From positions 63,555 through 118,754 of the forward strand of contig JANXEF010000001.1 in assembly GCA_025057895.1 (NCBI GenBank): DNA of 55,200 nt, written 5' to 3'. Position numbers and translations under genes: made by a program. This DNA comes from Archaeoglobaceae archaeon. GTDB taxonomy: Archaea; Halobacteriota; Archaeoglobi; Archaeoglobales; Archaeoglobaceae. Each line of letters opens with the position of its first letter. Within the stretch, counting starts at the first letter, position 1. Below, in pieces: positions 11,453 through 17,894 of the stretch. The notes below the pieces were generated by a model that was not told the DNA's origin, made no database searches, and saw nothing but the letters and a program-made list of their open reading frames with translations.

Positions 11453-12394
11453 TTAGCGTCTCGATCTCTCTAGTATTTCATTGTATACTCCTCTAGGCAT
11501 GATTATTGCAACTGCAATTAAAATTACATATAAAACGAGTTCCTCGTTTATCATTCCCCATCTCAAAGCTGTAAGCCACCAATTTTTTGCTAAGTAAACT
11601 ACTATACCCATTAAAAGTGGCCCTATAAGAGATCCAAGACCTCCAATAACTGCAGAGAGAATTACTAGTAACATCAGTGGTATATCGTACAGATCAGGAG
11701 AAACTGTGAGACGATAATTCACAAAAACAGCTCCCGCTATACCTGCAAAGAAAGAGCTCATGAAGAATGCGAGTATCTTGTATAATGTTGTATTTATACC
11801 GAGAGATTCAGAGAGCTCCTCACTATCTCTTATAGCTTTGAATCTGAGTCCAATTTTACTCCTAACTATGTAAAGCATGATTAGCATTGAGATGAACATA
11901 AAAAAGGTGGCAAAATAGTATTTTTCGATTGTAGTAGCAAAAACTATCTTTTCCGCTGGTATGGAAAAACCTTCTTCTCCTCCAAAAACCTCTCTCCAGA
12001 TAAAGACCTTTTGCATGAATACAAGCGGAAGAATTGCTGTAACAAGTGAAAAATAGTATCCTTTAAGCCTAAGAGTAACAATACCAATCCCAAGACCTAC
12101 AAGAGCTGAAAATAAACCTGAAAACAGAATTGCAATCATTGGATGAATTTCCCAGAAAAAGCCAATTCTCAATGGAAGTTGTAGAATTGCACTGACATAT
12201 GCCCCAATTCCAACAAAAGCTGTATGTCCAAGGTTTACCTGTCCTGTGTAACCTACCATGAGATCCCAACTGACAACGATGACTGCAAAGATGAGTGAAA
12301 GCCCTATGAGGTATAGATAAGCCGAAGGTGTGAACGTAGGAAGCAATATAAGAACAAAAAAAAGAATTAAAAGTATTAGGATTTGATTCTTCAC
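11453..12394 (-). CDS. livM: Branched-chain amino-acid ABC transporter permease LivM
   Basis: 313 residues with about nine or ten membrane helices. The sequence SWDLMVGYTGQVNLGHTAFVGIGAYVSA contains the LivM/LivH signature with the conserved Gly-His of the first core repeat, and GGLGSLIGPLLMGIVVY is the second. A charged cytoplasmic loop (RSKIGLRFKAIRDSEELSESLG) is the EAA-like site contacting the ATPase. Its ATG overlaps the livH stop by 4 nt, so the two permeases are made in step. Confidence 0.92.
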   Translation of the reverse strand: MKNQILILLILFFVLILLPTFTPSAYLYLIGLSLIFAVIVVSWDLMVGYTGQVNLGHTAFVGIGAYVSAILQLPLRIGFFWEIHPMIAILFSGLFSALVGLGIGIVTLRLKGYYFSLVTAILPLVFMQKVFIWREVFGGEEGFSIPAEKIVFATTIEKYYFATFFMFISMLIMLYIVRSKIGLRFKAIRDSEELSESLGINTTLYKILAFFMSSFFAGIAGAVFVNYRLTVSPDLYDIPLMLLVILSAVIGGLGSLIGPLLMGIVVYLAKNWWLTALRWGMINEELVLYVILIAVAIIMPRGVYNEILERSRR

Positions 12395-13248
12395 TCTTTC
12401 ACCCCGAAAAAGCCTGTAGGTTTTACTATCAGAATTCCAACTATTGCAAGAAGCATAACGAACTCAGACCATTGTGCTCCGAGTGTTTTCATCGTTGTAA
12501 CAAAAATATAGCCTATGATGAAAGAGGCTAGAATACTTCCTTGAAAGCTCCCCAAACCTCCCAAGATGACAACTGCAAATGCATATATCAAAACTCTTAA
12601 AATTATTGCTGGGTAAATGTTAAAGATCTGTGCATAAAGAATACCTGCAATTCCTGCAAGAGCTGAAGAGATTCCGATTGTTACTATCAATACCTTCTCT
12701 ACATCGATTCCAATCAACATTGACGCTTCAGAATCTTGGGAAACCGCTTTAATGCGTTTACCGATTAGTGATCTGTTTATGAATATCTCGAGTAATATCA
12801 GAACCAGAATTGCTATGAAAATCGCAAGTATTCTTATTCTTGCAATTCTAAGATTATCATAAATCACTTGAATACCTTCAACAAAAGGTTTTAGAGTTAA
12901 TCCACGGTTTCCAAAGCTCAAAAGTAAAATTTGTTCAATGAGCAAAGCGAATGCAAGTGTTACTATTATAACCATTACTATGTTGTTTCTGATCGGTTTA
13001 GTGAGAAAATAAACGATGATTCCGGTTAGGATAGAAAATATTATTCCAACCAAAGAAGCTGAATAGACATCAATAGCCATCTCTTTAACAAGAAAAATCG
13101 CTATATAGGCTGAGATTGCAAAGCAAACACCATGAGCAAAGTTCAAAACTCTTGAAACTCCAAAAATAAGAGAAAAACCTGAAGCGAGCAGAGCAAAGAT
13201 TCCCCCCATTGCTGTTCCAAAGACAAAGATTTCAATTGCATCCATCAT
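12391..13248 (-). CDS. livH: Branched-chain amino-acid ABC transporter permease LivH
   Basis: 285 residues, about eight membrane helices. The N-terminal GGIFALLASGFSLIFGVSRVLNFAHG contains the LivH signature, SLIGKRIKAVSQDSEASMLIGID is the ATPase-contact loop, and GGLGSFQGSILASFIIGY the second conserved repeat. It starts 4 nt after the livK stop. ATG codons at 13248 and 13245 are adjacent; either may be used. Confidence 0.92.
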   Translation of the reverse strand: MMDAIEIFVFGTAMGGIFALLASGFSLIFGVSRVLNFAHGVCFAISAYIAIFLVKEMAIDVYSASLVGIIFSILTGIIVYFLTKPIRNNIVMVIIVTLAFALLIEQILLLSFGNRGLTLKPFVEGIQVIYDNLRIARIRILAIFIAILVLILLEIFINRSLIGKRIKAVSQDSEASMLIGIDVEKVLIVTIGISSALAGIAGILYAQIFNIYPAIILRVLIYAFAVVILGGLGSFQGSILASFIIGYIFVTTMKTLGAQWSEFVMLLAIVGILIVKPTGFFGVKE

Positions 13249-13252
13249 AAGC

Positions 13253-14497
13253 TTAGATCCATGGTGGAAGCTTTAGCTTTCCATTAGCTACGAATTGTGG
13301 ATAAATTATCACTTGTTTTCCATCTTGCCATTGAGAGATCCAGTTTCTTATAAGCTTATCTCCCCAAGCAAGATCGTGGTTCTTTGTGAAGGCAATTGGC
13401 CTAGTTAAAATTACCGGATTCGATTCGTTGAACTTTTCCAGGTACTTTACGAGCACTTCAGGATTGAAAGGATCTTTCTCTCCTTTTCTATAAGCGTCTT
13501 CAACAACCATTTTGTACAGATAAACAGCATCATAAGCCCCATAAGCTTGATGCGACTCGGGATAATGTCCGTACTTCGCTCTATATCTTTCAACAAAGTT
13601 CTTACACATCTCTGTAATTGGTGCTGTTACAAGTGCACCACCATCTGCAATGAATATGACATAATTAGCAGCTCCAGCTGTCTTGTTGTAAAAGCCATAA
13701 TCGATCGCAGCCAGATCATGACCAGCGATGAGAAGTTTAGGTTTTAGATTAGCCCACTGTTTAACAAGTATGTCCCCCGTACCAGTTAAAGCTAAAATTG
13801 GGATTATTAGGTTCGCATTCATCTTTTCTGCTTCAAGTATTAGAGATTCATATTCAGCATAGTTCCTTGGAATCTTAACATCTTTTACGATTTCAACCCC
13901 AAGCGAGATAAGCAAAGGTCTAAGTTCTCTCATCACATCTTCAGCCCAGATATGTTCATCTCTTATTATGTAAACCCTTTTTACTTCATAATCATTCTCT
14001 CTTAACATTTTGACCATGTCAGCAATGTCATAAGCGAAGGTTGTTGCATTGTTTTGAGTTATCCTAAACCAATACTTGTATTTCTCGTAGTTCTCCGCAA
14101 CTTTTGCTGAATGTGATGGTGAAGAGGCATCTGCGAGGAATAAAGTCTTTGTTTCAGCCATTACTTCCATCTTTGCAAGCATGACCCCGCTAGAGAATCC
14201 GCCTATTATTACATCCGCCTTTTCAACAGTCGCAAGCCGTCTAAACTCAGCTGATCCAACGCTTGGATCGAGTTTATCGTCACCGACCACAACTTCAACT
14301 TTGTAACCTAGAATACCACCTTTAGCATTTATTTCTTCAACTGCAAGTTTTACAGCCTTTTCTTCTGACATACCCTCAGGAAGAGAAAGGGGACCTATGA
14401 CACCTATGACGACTTTATCTCTCTTCTGTTGTACTTGCCCTGGCGAAGCGCAAAGAGCTATGAGTAATGCCAACACAATTAATACCATCCAACGCAT
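13253..14497 (-). CDS. livK: Branched-chain amino-acid-type ABC transporter substrate-binding protein
   Basis: 414 residues. A hydrophobic N-terminus (residues 4-15) ends at Cys16, a probable lipid-anchor site, though the Leu just before the Cys is atypical of the lipobox. DKVVIGVIGPLSLPEG begins the type I periplasmic-binding fold, followed by ADVIIGGFSSGVMLAKM (ligand pocket), WFRITQNNATTFAYD and PESHQAYGAYDAVYLYK. Homologues bind branched-chain amino acids, amides, urea or aromatic acids; the ligand cannot be read here. First gene of the minus-strand arm of the liv locus. Confidence 0.88.
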   Translation of the reverse strand: MRWMVLIVLALLIALCASPGQVQQKRDKVVIGVIGPLSLPEGMSEEKAVKLAVEEINAKGGILGYKVEVVVGDDKLDPSVGSAEFRRLATVEKADVIIGGFSSGVMLAKMEVMAETKTLFLADASSPSHSAKVAENYEKYKYWFRITQNNATTFAYDIADMVKMLRENDYEVKRVYIIRDEHIWAEDVMRELRPLLISLGVEIVKDVKIPRNYAEYESLILEAEKMNANLIIPILALTGTGDILVKQWANLKPKLLIAGHDLAAIDYGFYNKTAGAANYVIFIADGGALVTAPITEMCKNFVERYRAKYGHYPESHQAYGAYDAVYLYKMVVEDAYRKGEKDPFNPEVLVKYLEKFNESNPVILTRPIAFTKNHDLAWGDKLIRNWISQWQDGKQVIIYPQFVANGKLKLPPWI

Positions 14498-14517
14498 GCT
14501 GAAAAGTTAAGGAAAAG

Positions 14518-14526
14518 TATTTAAAA
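14518..14526. promoter_or_regulatory. Shared bidirectional TATA element between livK and livG
   Basis: TATTTAAAA in a 50-nt gap. Its palindromic core TTTAAA (14520-14525) is centred exactly midway between the first bases of the livK ATG (14497) and the livG ATG (14548). It can be read as TATA on both strands at 22-27 nt from each start codon, predicting two leaderless transcripts from one element. Confidence 0.55.
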
Positions 14527-14547
14527 CTTTGCATCTCAGATACACAC

Positions 14548-15228
14548 ATGCTAAGGCTAATTGATATTTCAAAGAACTTTGGTGGACTCAAAGTTCTCGA
14601 TAGAATTTCTTTAGAAATGAAAAAAGAGAAACTTGGAATCATTGGGCCAAATGGAGCTGGAAAGACAACCTTATTCAATATAATCTCCGGATTTTTGAAG
14701 CCAGATTCAGGAAAGATTTTTTTCATGAACGAGAACATTATTGGAAAAAAACCAAGTGATCTGGCAAAACTCGGAATAATAAGAACTTTCCAAATAGTTA
14801 AGGTTTTCGAAAACTTGACAGTTGAAGAGAACATACTCACAATCGTCGATGATTTAAGTATTCTTAAAGATTTTGATTTGGAAGAGAAAAGAAAAGAAAA
14901 GGCTAAAAATCTCTCTCAGGGAGAGATAAGGAGATTAAGTATCGCTCTTGCTCTTGTTAGGAGACCAAAAATACTTCTTCTTGACGAACCTTTTTCAGGG
15001 TTGAGTAAAAAAGAAGCGGAGAAGATTTTGACTATAATCAATGAAATTGGTGGGAATGGGACTTCAATTGCAATCGTCGAACACAGAATGAGAGAAATGT
15101 TCGATGCAGTAGATAGAGTCGTTGTTCTAAACGGAGGAAAATTGATATTCGATGGTTATCCCGAAGATGCCCTAGAGAACAAGTCTGTAAGAGAGGCCTA
15201 TTTTGGGAGCAAATATGTTAAAGGTTGA
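14548..15228 (+). CDS. livG: Branched-chain amino-acid ABC transporter ATP-binding protein LivG
   Basis: 226 residues. Walker A GPNGAGKTT (about 35-43), Q-loop region IRTFQIVKVFENLTVEENIL, signature LSQGEIRRLSIALAL, Walker B ILLLDEPFSGL and the switch His in IAIVEHRM. It is about 25 residues shorter than usual LivG proteins because the helical subdomain between the Q-loop and signature is cut down; all catalytic motifs remain. It overlaps livF by 14 nt. Confidence 0.9.
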   Translation: MLRLIDISKNFGGLKVLDRISLEMKKEKLGIIGPNGAGKTTLFNIISGFLKPDSGKIFFMNENIIGKKPSDLAKLGIIRTFQIVKVFENLTVEENILTIVDDLSILKDFDLEEKRKEKAKNLSQGEIRRLSIALALVRRPKILLLDEPFSGLSKKEAEKILTIINEIGGNGTSIAIVEHRMREMFDAVDRVVVLNGGKLIFDGYPEDALENKSVREAYFGSKYVKG

Positions 15229-15877
15229 GAACCTATACGCCTCCTATGGCAGAGAAGATATTTTAAGAGACGTAAATTTAGAAGTTCTGGAAAAAGAAAC
15301 TGTTGCAATTCTGGGTCCTAATGGTGCTGGTAAGACAACTTTGTTGAAAGCAATCTGTGGTCTCTTGAAAACCAGAGGTAGAATTTTATTCGAAGGAAAA
15401 GACATTTCAGGGCTTAAGACACACAAAAGAATTGCTCTTGGAATTGCAATAAGTCCTGAAGGAAGGAGAATTTTCCCTAATATGAACGTCAGAGATAATC
15501 TTCTGATAACTGGTTTCAAGAATCTTGAAGAAGTCTACGAGATTTTTCCAAGACTTAAAGAGAGAAGAGATCAACTTGCAGGAACTTTGAGTGGAGGAGA
15601 GCAACAGATGCTCTCTATTGCGCGCGCACTCATGTTTAAGCCCAAGCTTTTACTTCTAGATGAACCAAGTTTTGGACTTGCCCCGGTTATTGTAGAGACA
15701 CTTTCTGAAACCATTCATAAAGTAAAAGATCTTGGAGTTTCAATACTACTCGTTGAACAGAATCTCTCTCTAGTTGCAGAGATTTCAGACAGAATTTACG
15801 TACTCTCAGGTGGAGAAATAGTTGATGAGGGTACAAGAAGAGATATCGAAAGAATTGAAAAAAGCTATTTCACCTGA
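15215..15877 (+). CDS. livF: Branched-chain amino-acid ABC transporter ATP-binding protein LivF
   Basis: 220 residues. GPNGAGKTTLLKAICGL (Walker A), then SPEGRRIFPNMNVRDNL, typical of LivF, then LSGGEQQMLSIARALM (signature), LLLDEPSFGLAPV (Walker B) and VEQNLS (switch region). The start at 15215 is chosen over 15203 because it gives the family N-terminus MLKVENLYASYG and follows a GGGAG ribosome-binding site inside livG. The 3' end overlaps the convergent thymidylate synthase-like gene by 13 nt. Confidence 0.92.
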   Translation: MLKVENLYASYGREDILRDVNLEVLEKETVAILGPNGAGKTTLLKAICGLLKTRGRILFEGKDISGLKTHKRIALGIAISPEGRRIFPNMNVRDNLLITGFKNLEEVYEIFPRLKERRDQLAGTLSGGEQQMLSIARALMFKPKLLLLDEPSFGLAPVIVETLSETIHKVKDLGVSILLVEQNLSLVAEISDRIYVLSGGEIVDEGTRRDIERIEKSYFT

Positions 15878-17121
15878 AATCTTTTCATATCTGGATACAA
15901 AATTTCCTTTACTGCGTGGATAAAGCCTTCATAGATGTGAGCATCTACTACGAAATGTGCATAATCGTATTCCTTAAAGCCTACTATTTCAGCAACATAT
16001 TTTGTTAAAAGAGCGAAAGCAAACATATTTGCATGCATCGCTCCGTAAACATCATTTGAGCGCATATAAAAAATTCCACTCAATTTTTTTCCCTTCTTGA
16101 CAAACTGGTAACCACGAAGACATGGGGGGTCGCTACTTTTGAGATCCCAGTACCTAGAAATTCCGACATAACAGTCTCTTCTACATTTATCTATTTTTAG
16201 CTTTTCAATGACCTCGTAAAGTTGATCAACTTTAATATCGTCTTTTTCGCAGTATCTTGCCCTTTCCGCATATGTGTATTCTTCTCCATCTCTTAGAATT
16301 GATTTTAAAGTTCTATTAAGAAGATCATGATGGATAACATAACTGTGTGCATAATCGATGCAGTATCTCTCAGTAAATGGGGCTTTATCGTGAATTTTGT
16401 TCTCTTCTGGGTTCTTAACCTCTATGAAGAGTCTATGAACGAATTTACTTCTTTTCTGTCCTTCAAACATTTCCCATTCTGTTTCCTTGATTTTTCCATA
16501 GTTATAAATTAGTTCCATTGCTGAATGCCATGCCGAAGAAATGTAATCCTCCACGAGATGTGTACCCAAATCAGTATAACCATAAATTTCTTCGCAGTTT
16601 TCTGAATAAATCTCTGCTCTACTCACATCTCTTTCGTAAATATGTGGTATTGAAACGAGGAGTGCGATGCTACCAGTATCGAGTTCAGCCTTCTGGGAAA
16701 CTTCTTCTAGAGAATTGGAAAGGAAGTGAAAGTTAACGTCAAAGTAATTAAGACACTCAAGAGAGCGAATATAAGCAGTCAAATGAAGTTTTCCATCAAA
16801 AAGAAAAGAGATTTCAGTTATTGCAACCGGATTTTTTGAAAGATGATCTTTTGGAGTCCAGAGAGGTATTGAGATTCTTCTAGTATATGGCCTCTCTCTA
16901 AGCTTTCCAACTACAATCCCCAGCATCTTTTTCAGCGTTTCACAATACTTCTCAATGAAAAGATCTGGAACTATCTGAGAAAATTCTGGTTTTTCGATCA
17001 CTAAGAAAGTTGGTGTCGCATTTAGACTGTTTCCAAACCTAGATTTACAGAGCTCTCCATTCCTTATTATTTTTCCAAGTATTTTGGCTTTTGCATTTTC
17101 GAAATCTTTTTCGAAGATCAT
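15865..17121 (-). CDS. Double-length thymidylate synthase-like protein (two fused ThyA domains, one lacking the catalytic Cys)
   Basis: 418 residues, about twice the ~200 of the short archaeal ThyA family. The C-terminal half (about 285-405) has the full ThyA set: DPPCLRGYQF with nucleophile Cys334, YMRSNDVYG (phosphate-binding Arg354-Ser355), Asn365 and VDAHIYE (His395, Tyr397). The N-terminal half (about 75-165) aligns with it block for block: SKNPVAITEISFL, AYIRSLECL, DVNFHFLSN and IPHIYERD. The position equivalent to Cys334 is Ala100, preceded by NPV, so this half is probably catalytically dead but keeps the Arg-Ser, Asn130 and His160-Tyr162. A substrate other than dUMP, for example a hydroxymethylase-type reaction, is possible. 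Confidence 0.75.
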   Translation of the reverse strand: MIFEKDFENAKAKILGKIIRNGELCKSRFGNSLNATPTFLVIEKPEFSQIVPDLFIEKYCETLKKMLGIVVGKLRERPYTRRISIPLWTPKDHLSKNPVAITEISFLFDGKLHLTAYIRSLECLNYFDVNFHFLSNSLEEVSQKAELDTGSIALLVSIPHIYERDVSRAEIYSENCEEIYGYTDLGTHLVEDYISSAWHSAMELIYNYGKIKETEWEMFEGQKRSKFVHRLFIEVKNPEENKIHDKAPFTERYCIDYAHSYVIHHDLLNRTLKSILRDGEEYTYAERARYCEKDDIKVDQLYEVIEKLKIDKCRRDCYVGISRYWDLKSSDPPCLRGYQFVKKGKKLSGIFYMRSNDVYGAMHANMFAFALLTKYVAEIVGFKEYDYAHFVVDAHIYEGFIHAVKEILYPDMKRFQVK

Positions 17122-17156: not shown

Positions 17157-17894
17157 CTATTCTAATCTCTTCCACTGACACCTGTTGTATACACACTTGC
17201 ATCCCATGTTATATTTCAAATAATCATAGCATTCCCTATATTCACAGGTAGTCACTATCTCCTCTCCAACACCCATGCAGAAATTTCCAGAACATCCACC
17301 GATTTTACAGTCATCATCTTTTTCACAGTATGCAAAAGTAGATTTTCCACAGAATAGATCCTCTTTTTCAAGTATTTTAGAATTTCCAGATAGATCTATG
17401 AATTCAACAGCAATTTCACCAATGTTAAAGAATTCAACTTCCCTCTTACAAAGACAGCGGAAGATTATACCATCGTAATCCTTTTCTACTATTCTCAACA
17501 TATCATCATTTTCAACTACTATTTCATCGCTTCCGCAGTTAACAGTCACCAAAGCTGTTAGCGTTCTCGATTCAATATCGTATCGGTAATAGTTCCCATA
17601 ATTACCAAAATAAGAGCAGTTTGATATTCTATACGAAATATTTATCCATTTTTGACCACATTTACCGTTGAAGAATTCCCATTCCTCACATTTTGTTCCA
17701 TCAGGAAAAATGCATAATCCAATTTGCTTGTTATCTGACCTCTCAACTCTGTAAACATGACCCATATCGATGCAGAACTTAGCAGCAGGATTTAAAATGC
17801 TATTTGAAATGATCCTTTCTTTCTGCATATCAACAGCTATTGAGATGATCATTACAAAAGCAATCAAGGAAAAGAAAGCGACTAGCTTTTTCAT
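17157..17894 (-). CDS. Secreted cysteine-rich protein with DUF333 and eight-cysteine cluster
   Basis: 245 residues. A hydrophobic segment at residues 4-21 is a signal peptide or anchor. NPAAKFCIDMGHVYRVE followed by GLCIFPDGTKCEEWEFFNGKC is the DUF333 domain found in exported proteins. The C-terminal part (about 195-245) has the spacing of an eight-cysteine cluster: FAYCEKDDDC, GGCSGNFC, TTCEYREC, MGCKC and NRCQW. The many cysteines probably form extracytoplasmic disulfides. Function unknown. Alone on its strand, 35 nt upstream of the thymidylate synthase-like gene. Confidence 0.75.
   Translation of the reverse strand: MKKLVAFFSLIAFVMIISIAVDMQKERIISNSILNPAAKFCIDMGHVYRVERSDNKQIGLCIFPDGTKCEEWEFFNGKCGQKWINISYRISNCSYFGNYGNYYRYDIESRTLTALVTVNCGSDEIVVENDDMLRIVEKDYDGIIFRCLCKREVEFFNIGEIAVEFIDLSGNSKILEKEDLFCGKSTFAYCEKDDDCKIGGCSGNFCMGVGEEIVTTCEYRECYDYLKYNMGCKCVYNRCQWKRLE

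Follow-up and report, generated by a model that had tools for sequence, protein, structure and literature searches.

In canonical homodimeric thymidylate synthases (TSs) of the ThyA type, residues such as R166, S167, H207 and Y209 (Escherichia coli numbering) bind the nucleotide of their own subunit, but the arginine residues of the neighbouring subunit are also needed, each site receiving R126 and R127 from its partner. The dCMP enzymes of this fold carry Asp at the position of the base-recognition residue Asn177. The literature presents TS as an obligate homodimer whose two subunits are identical and whose two sites are both competent; in crystals of the Enterococcus faecalis enzyme dUMP occupies only one of these sites, and the half-site reactivity of TS is debated (PMC6479881). 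Biochemical work on archaeal TSs is reportedly scarce (PMC9931769). Our search of the literature for tandem, duplicated, monomeric or pseudo-enzyme TSs yielded nothing relevant, and no assay or solved structure of a tandem TS came to light; subscription journals and UniProt lay outside that search, so an earlier note on such proteins may exist. In this work we analysed a gene of an Archaeoglobaceae archaeon that encodes two homologous TS halves in one chain, of which only the second carries the catalytic cysteine. The gene lies in a stretch of 55,200 nucleotides, hereafter called the window.

A TS gene with two homologous halves

The gene is an uninterrupted open reading frame that starts with an ATG at 17121 and ends with a TAG at 15865. 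The original prediction had located it correctly but had not given its strand, which is minus.

15865..17121, minus strand: tandem thymidylate synthase gene, 418 codons plus a TAG stop, with PF00303 in both halves
16576..17121, minus strand: N-terminal pseudo-enzyme half (N-half), residues 1–182, a shortened TS with a dead catalytic position, assigned by PF00303 and predicted fold
15868..16575, minus strand: C-terminal catalytic half (C-half), residues 183–418, archaeal-type ThyA, assigned by PF00303, best NCBIfam model TIGR03283

PF00303 was the sole Pfam family matched, and the protein had no match to PF02511 (ThyX). Compared with the curated PF00303 cut-off of 24.3 bits, the whole protein scored 95.9 bits, the C-half 72.1 bits (E = 5.2e-20) and residues 1–172 of the N-half, searched alone, 27.1 bits (E = 2.9e-6). 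Each half thus exceeds the cut-off in a separate HMM search, a similarity far above chance, which confirms the proposal of two homologous TS halves made in the original prediction. A profile scan of the whole genome of the window likewise gave two separate PF00303 matches, within one 423-codon frame. The best NCBIfam model for the protein is TIGR03283, with 134.4 bits against an equivalog cut-off of 174.55, which the tandem proteins of genomes G080, G023, G026 and G048 likewise fail to reach. The genes of this family are probably labelled simply thymidylate synthase in databases. When the N-half sequence was searched against the PDB, TS-fold chains were found, the best being phage AfhB (E = 3.5e-5).

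AlphaFold2, run on the alignment of 50 homologues described below, gave the whole chain a pLDDT of 93.7 and a pTM of 0.93, and the N-half alone a pLDDT of 91.3 and a pTM of 0.88. Because such a pTM was reached for two similarly sized domains, the relative placement of the halves is confidently predicted, and it would correspond to a TS-dimer-like geometry. The original prediction had named two outcomes that would count against it, an N-half with no similarity to TS and a packing of the halves as unrelated domains. Neither was observed: both the HMM search and the predicted fold identify the N-half as a TS, and the model presents the two halves as one confidently packed unit. According to the alignment, the N-half of Archaeoglobi has lost about 35 canonical residues between the N-terminal strand and the YTYGQR motif, and these residues belong to the canonical N-terminal/cofactor region.

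In Foldseek searches the whole model matched TS and MilA structures with E values of about 1e-11 to 1e-12 and a query TM-score (TMq) of about 0.4, a value expected because a single-domain chain spans one half only. The best match of the whole model was the CMP hydroxymethylase MilA (5jnh), while the N-half alone matched AfhB (9iqu) with a TMq of 0.82 and many TS structures with a TMq of about 0.70–0.77. That the best PDB matches are MilA for the whole model and a phage dCMP enzyme for the N-half model could mean that the protein is a dCMP/CMP hydroxymethylase or another base-modifying relative rather than a dTMP synthase. We consider this very unlikely, given that the base-recognition residue Asn365 of the C-half is Asn in 50/50 homologues and that the tandem gene is the only TS candidate in genomes devoid of ThyX and thymidine kinase.

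The gene neighbourhood was uninformative, being conserved among close relatives only. Immediately upstream of the TS gene, on the same strand and after a gap of 35 bases, lies the gene of a DUF333-domain protein (17157–17894, minus strand); only five close relatives have related open reading frames near their TS gene. On the other side lies a branched-chain-amino-acid-type ABC transporter (11453–15877), with two ATPase genes in the orientation opposite to that of the permease and binding-protein genes; the last transporter gene and the 3' end of the TS gene share 13 bases.

Active-site residues and proposed arginine lending

Residues were numbered by alignment to E. coli ThyA, and their conservation was scored in 50 full or near-full homologues (45 from Archaeoglobi and 5 from Syntropharchaeia).

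16120..16122, minus strand: Cys334, catalytic nucleophile of the C-half, PPC334 context, 50/50
16822..16824, minus strand: Ala100, N-half site of the TS nucleophile (E. coli Cys146), Ala in 45, Ser in 3, Thr in 2, Cys in 0/50
16762..16767, minus strand: Arg119-Ser120 of the N-half (E. coli R166-S167), dead-half phosphate site, 50/50
16636..16644, minus strand: His160-x-Tyr162 of the N-half (E. coli H207-Y209), ribose-binding positions, 50/50
16732..16734, minus strand: Asn130 of the N-half (E. coli N177, base recognition), Asn in 40, Asp in 9, Thr in 1
16057..16062, minus strand: Arg354-Ser355 of the C-half (E. coli R166-S167), 50/50
16027..16029, minus strand: Asn365 of the C-half (E. coli N177), a residue that favours dUMP over dCMP, 50/50
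15931..15939, minus strand: His395-x-Tyr397 of the C-half (E. coli H207-Y209), 50/50
16474..16476, minus strand: Trp216 of the C-half, in the loop that holds Arg21 in E. coli TS, Trp in 50/50

Cys334 in the C-half and Ala100, within the motif NPVA, in the N-half are exactly where the original prediction had placed them, and the Arg-Ser, Asn and His-x-Tyr positions that it had recognized are present in both halves alike. The C-half is invariant at the positions of E. coli Y94, R126, C146, R166, S167, D169, N177, H207 and Y209, and its dUMP-site set (R166, S167, D169, N177, H207 and Y209) is complete in all 50 homologues. The N-half has lost the cysteine in every homologue and is invariant at the positions of Y94, R126, R127, R166, S167, H207 and Y209; it has D or E at the D169 position in 47/50 and Asn at the N177 position in 40/50. 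Trp216, in the loop from which Arg21 is lost in the C-half, was considered as a special trait of the family and set aside, other archaeal single-domain TSs having Tyr, Asn or Asp.

The N-half diverges faster than the C-half, with a mean pairwise identity of 44% versus 62% across the 50 homologues. Twelve of its residues are invariant, and seven of these are dUMP-site positions. The invariance of 7 of the 10 N-half dUMP-site positions corresponds to a hypergeometric P of 7.5e-8, and that of 5 of the 8 own-site positions, leaving out the lent Arg pair, to a P of 9e-6, values that serve as a guide only since the tests treat sites as independent and ignore shared ancestry. Judging from these sequences, the N-half holds a catalytically dead site that probably still binds nucleotide.

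The two pairs of residues that correspond to the arginines exchanged between TS subunits differ in their conservation.

16876..16881, minus strand: Arg81-Arg82 of the N-half (E. coli R126-R127), expected to reach the catalytic C-half site, 50/50
16174..16179, minus strand: Arg315-Asp316 of the C-half (E. coli R126-R127), expected to reach the dead site, from the full alignment

In the C-half pair R315 is kept in 50/50, and the second position is Asp (D316) in 42 of the 45 Archaeoglobi and Arg in all five Syntropharchaeia, whereas single-domain TSs keep the second Arg in 48/50. Another arginine, R314, directly precedes R315 in 38/45 Archaeoglobi C-halves and might partly substitute for the Arg lost at D316. 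An N:C pseudo-dimer is favoured because R81-R82 is invariant while the reciprocal pair is Arg-Asp in Archaeoglobi: selection would preserve the residues lent to the live site and be relaxed on those lent to the dead one. This difference in conservation (Arg-Arg in 50/50 at R81-R82 versus Asp in 42/45 Archaeoglobi at position 316) supports the internal pseudo-heterodimer with lent arginines put forward in the original prediction. Instead, the C-halves of two chains might pair as a conventional homodimer, the N-halves being appended scaffolds; this would agree with the homodimeric state of solved TSs (PMC6479881) and with a C-half that is almost a complete archaeal TS. Such an arrangement, however, predicts the reverse pattern of conservation: in Archaeoglobi the homodimer would miss the Arg that nearly all single TSs keep, and it would leave the invariance of the N-half Arg pair without a reason; moreover, the AlphaFold2 model positions both halves of one chain with high confidence. 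We regard a C:C homodimer as improbable.

We thus favour, with good but not full confidence, a single-chain pseudo-heterodimeric TS composed of one catalytic C-half and of a dead N-half that lends arginines and holds a nucleotide pocket. In this enzyme the C-half would be the catalytic subunit, its Cys334 attacking dUMP, with methylene-tetrahydromethanopterin as the probable methylene donor. The N-half would pack on the C-half in the manner of a partner subunit in a TS dimer, would lend Arg81 and Arg82 to the dUMP phosphate in the live site, and would keep a second nucleotide-monophosphate pocket from which the nucleophile is gone.

Lending arginines and holding a nucleotide had been posed as alternatives in the original prediction; the conservation of the N-half suggests both roles. 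The presence of R119, S120, H160 and Y162, together with R315, which the dead site would receive, suggests that this site still binds nucleotide, or phosphate at least. Another role for the N-half would be that of a pure scaffold and arginine donor with an empty, non-functional pocket of its own, which would fit the loss of its Cys, of the second Arg supplied to its pocket and, in Archaeoglobi, of about 35 N-terminal/cofactor-region residues. It would not account for the invariance of R119, S120, H160 and Y162 in 50 sequences despite the fast divergence of this half, and we consider a pure scaffold rather unlikely. Going one step beyond nucleotide binding, we tentatively propose, as an idea with clearly less than an even chance, that the dead half is a nucleotide sensor derived from a TS subunit. 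It would take up dUMP, dTMP or a related nucleotide, carry out no chemistry on it, and tune the live site across the old dimer interface.

Distribution and origin of the tandem gene

Tandem homologues occur in nearly all surveyed Archaeoglobi genera and in Syntropharchaeia. A scan of GTDB species genomes found them in Archaeoglobus, Geoglobus, Ferroglobus and other Archaeoglobi, and also in Candidatus Syntrophoarchaeum and Candidatus Alkanophagales; in the phylum survey of 394 genomes the other matches listed span one TS domain. The tandem gene is present in 47 of 59 Archaeoglobi genomes, a few copies being contig-end fragments. The genome of the window is fragmented (40 contigs, 79% complete), which could point to an assembly or gene-calling artefact, or to a decaying local duplicate. 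We give this explanation practically no weight, as the genome survey already refutes it: the same two-half frame, with no internal stops, is found in 45 Archaeoglobi, complete single-contig genomes included, and in five Syntropharchaeia.

Whether ThyX or a normal ThyA is encoded elsewhere was a question raised by the original prediction. Among the 59 Archaeoglobi genomes, 39 have the tandem gene and no ThyX. Eight have both (six of one genus, one with 9% contamination and one other), nine have ThyX and no TS of the ThyA kind, one has single-domain TS-like genes only, and two (54% and 81% complete) have neither the tandem gene nor ThyX. ThyX is also absent from all five tandem-bearing Syntropharchaeia genomes. 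None was found in the window's own genome, whose 79% completeness makes the sole-TS argument rest on its relatives. None of the 11 genomes checked has a thymidine kinase (PF00265), so salvage of this type offers no alternative. DHFR (PF00186) was likewise found in none of these 11 genomes (G000, G001, G014, G020, G023, G026, G027, G048, G053, G055 and G080), and the methanopterin (H4MPT) enzyme Mch is present in all of these, which makes methylene-H4MPT the probable one-carbon donor. With ThyX, any other ThyA, thymidine kinase and DHFR missing, the genomes indicate that the tandem ThyA is almost certainly the working dTMP synthase of these archaea.

Several observations stand beside this general picture. 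In the DHFR-free genomes the only TS is of the ThyA type, a chemistry that is expected to oxidise its pterin. One Archaeoglobaceae genus (G040–G045) is the only one to carry tandem ThyA and ThyX throughout (6/6 genomes), possibly as a replacement under way or a division of labour. Another member of the family (G016, 72% complete) has no tandem gene and three different single-domain TS-like genes (L048, L049 and L050), which possibly come from contamination or mobile elements. No tandem TS was found in the viral contigs searched or in the viral structure library. IMG/VR contigs L122–L128 and L130, several of them about 305–317 kb, encode viral TSs of about 410–490 amino acids, in which an insertion of roughly 45–75 residues interrupts the TS profile.

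In trees of the separated halves plus single-domain TSs, the N-halves form one clade (100/98), the C-halves form another (99/97), and the two jointly form one clade (95/95), which makes them sisters in the free tree. A constrained topology that separates the C-half from the N-half and places it with the single-domain archaeal TSs was not rejected (p-AU 0.295), which leaves the halves as likely sisters. The split between Archaeoglobi and Syntropharchaeia is recovered in each half-tree. Most simply, a single duplication-fusion and the loss of the first Cys would predate the separation of these two classes; the fused gene may also have been transferred. The tandem architecture is an ancient, lineage-wide family trait, which removes the reading as local decay. 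In ANME-1, thyA has reportedly been replaced by a virus-derived thyX (PMC9894754), and the Alkanophagales and Syntrophoarchaeum genomes studied, which come from relatives of ANME-1, retain the tandem form.

Comparison with described TSs and related enzymes

The closest single-domain relatives are the archaeal ThyA proteins of TIGR03283, of about 200 amino acids, with which the C-half shares the Cys, RS, Asn and His-x-Tyr positions and the archaeal YTY motif. The tandem protein differs from them in that each chain has two halves but a single catalytic site, and in that its C-half carries Trp216 in the Arg21 loop and, in Archaeoglobi, Arg-Asp at the lending position. By alignment, it has the fold and active-site residues of canonical ThyA (E. 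coli, Lactobacillus casei and human) in common with these enzymes, but one gene encodes two unlike halves with one nucleophile. The protist DHFR-TS fusions also hold TS inside a longer fused chain; there, however, a different enzyme is fused and the dimer has two complete TS sites, whereas here TS is fused to TS.

AfhB (9iqu, 9iqc) and MilA (5jnh) share the fold of the tandem halves, and both are single-domain nucleotide-modifying enzymes. The aligned AfhB sequence has Cys at the nucleophile position, in contrast with Ala100 of the N-half. The Asp-for-Asn177 trait of the dCMP/CMP hydroxymethylases (MilA, T4 gp42 and AfhB) is absent from the C-half and is found in 9/50 dead halves only. The PDB titles of 9iqu and 9iqc present AfhB as a dCMP hydroxylase and as a flavin-dependent monooxygenase with FAD, which is an unexpected chemistry for a TS fold.

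In conclusion, the tandem family, which appears to provide the sole dTMP synthase of a well-studied archaeal lineage, looks like a natural TS with exactly one chemical site and a nucleophile-less second site that keeps most of the nucleotide-binding residues. Because both sites lie in one chain, one-site catalysis and communication between sites could be addressed with simple mutants. The asymmetry of E. faecalis TS is conformational and arises between identical subunits, whereas that of the tandem ThyA is fixed in sequence. If the dead half is indeed a sensor, the negative cooperativity or half-site behaviour of homodimers would here have become a fixed regulatory architecture.
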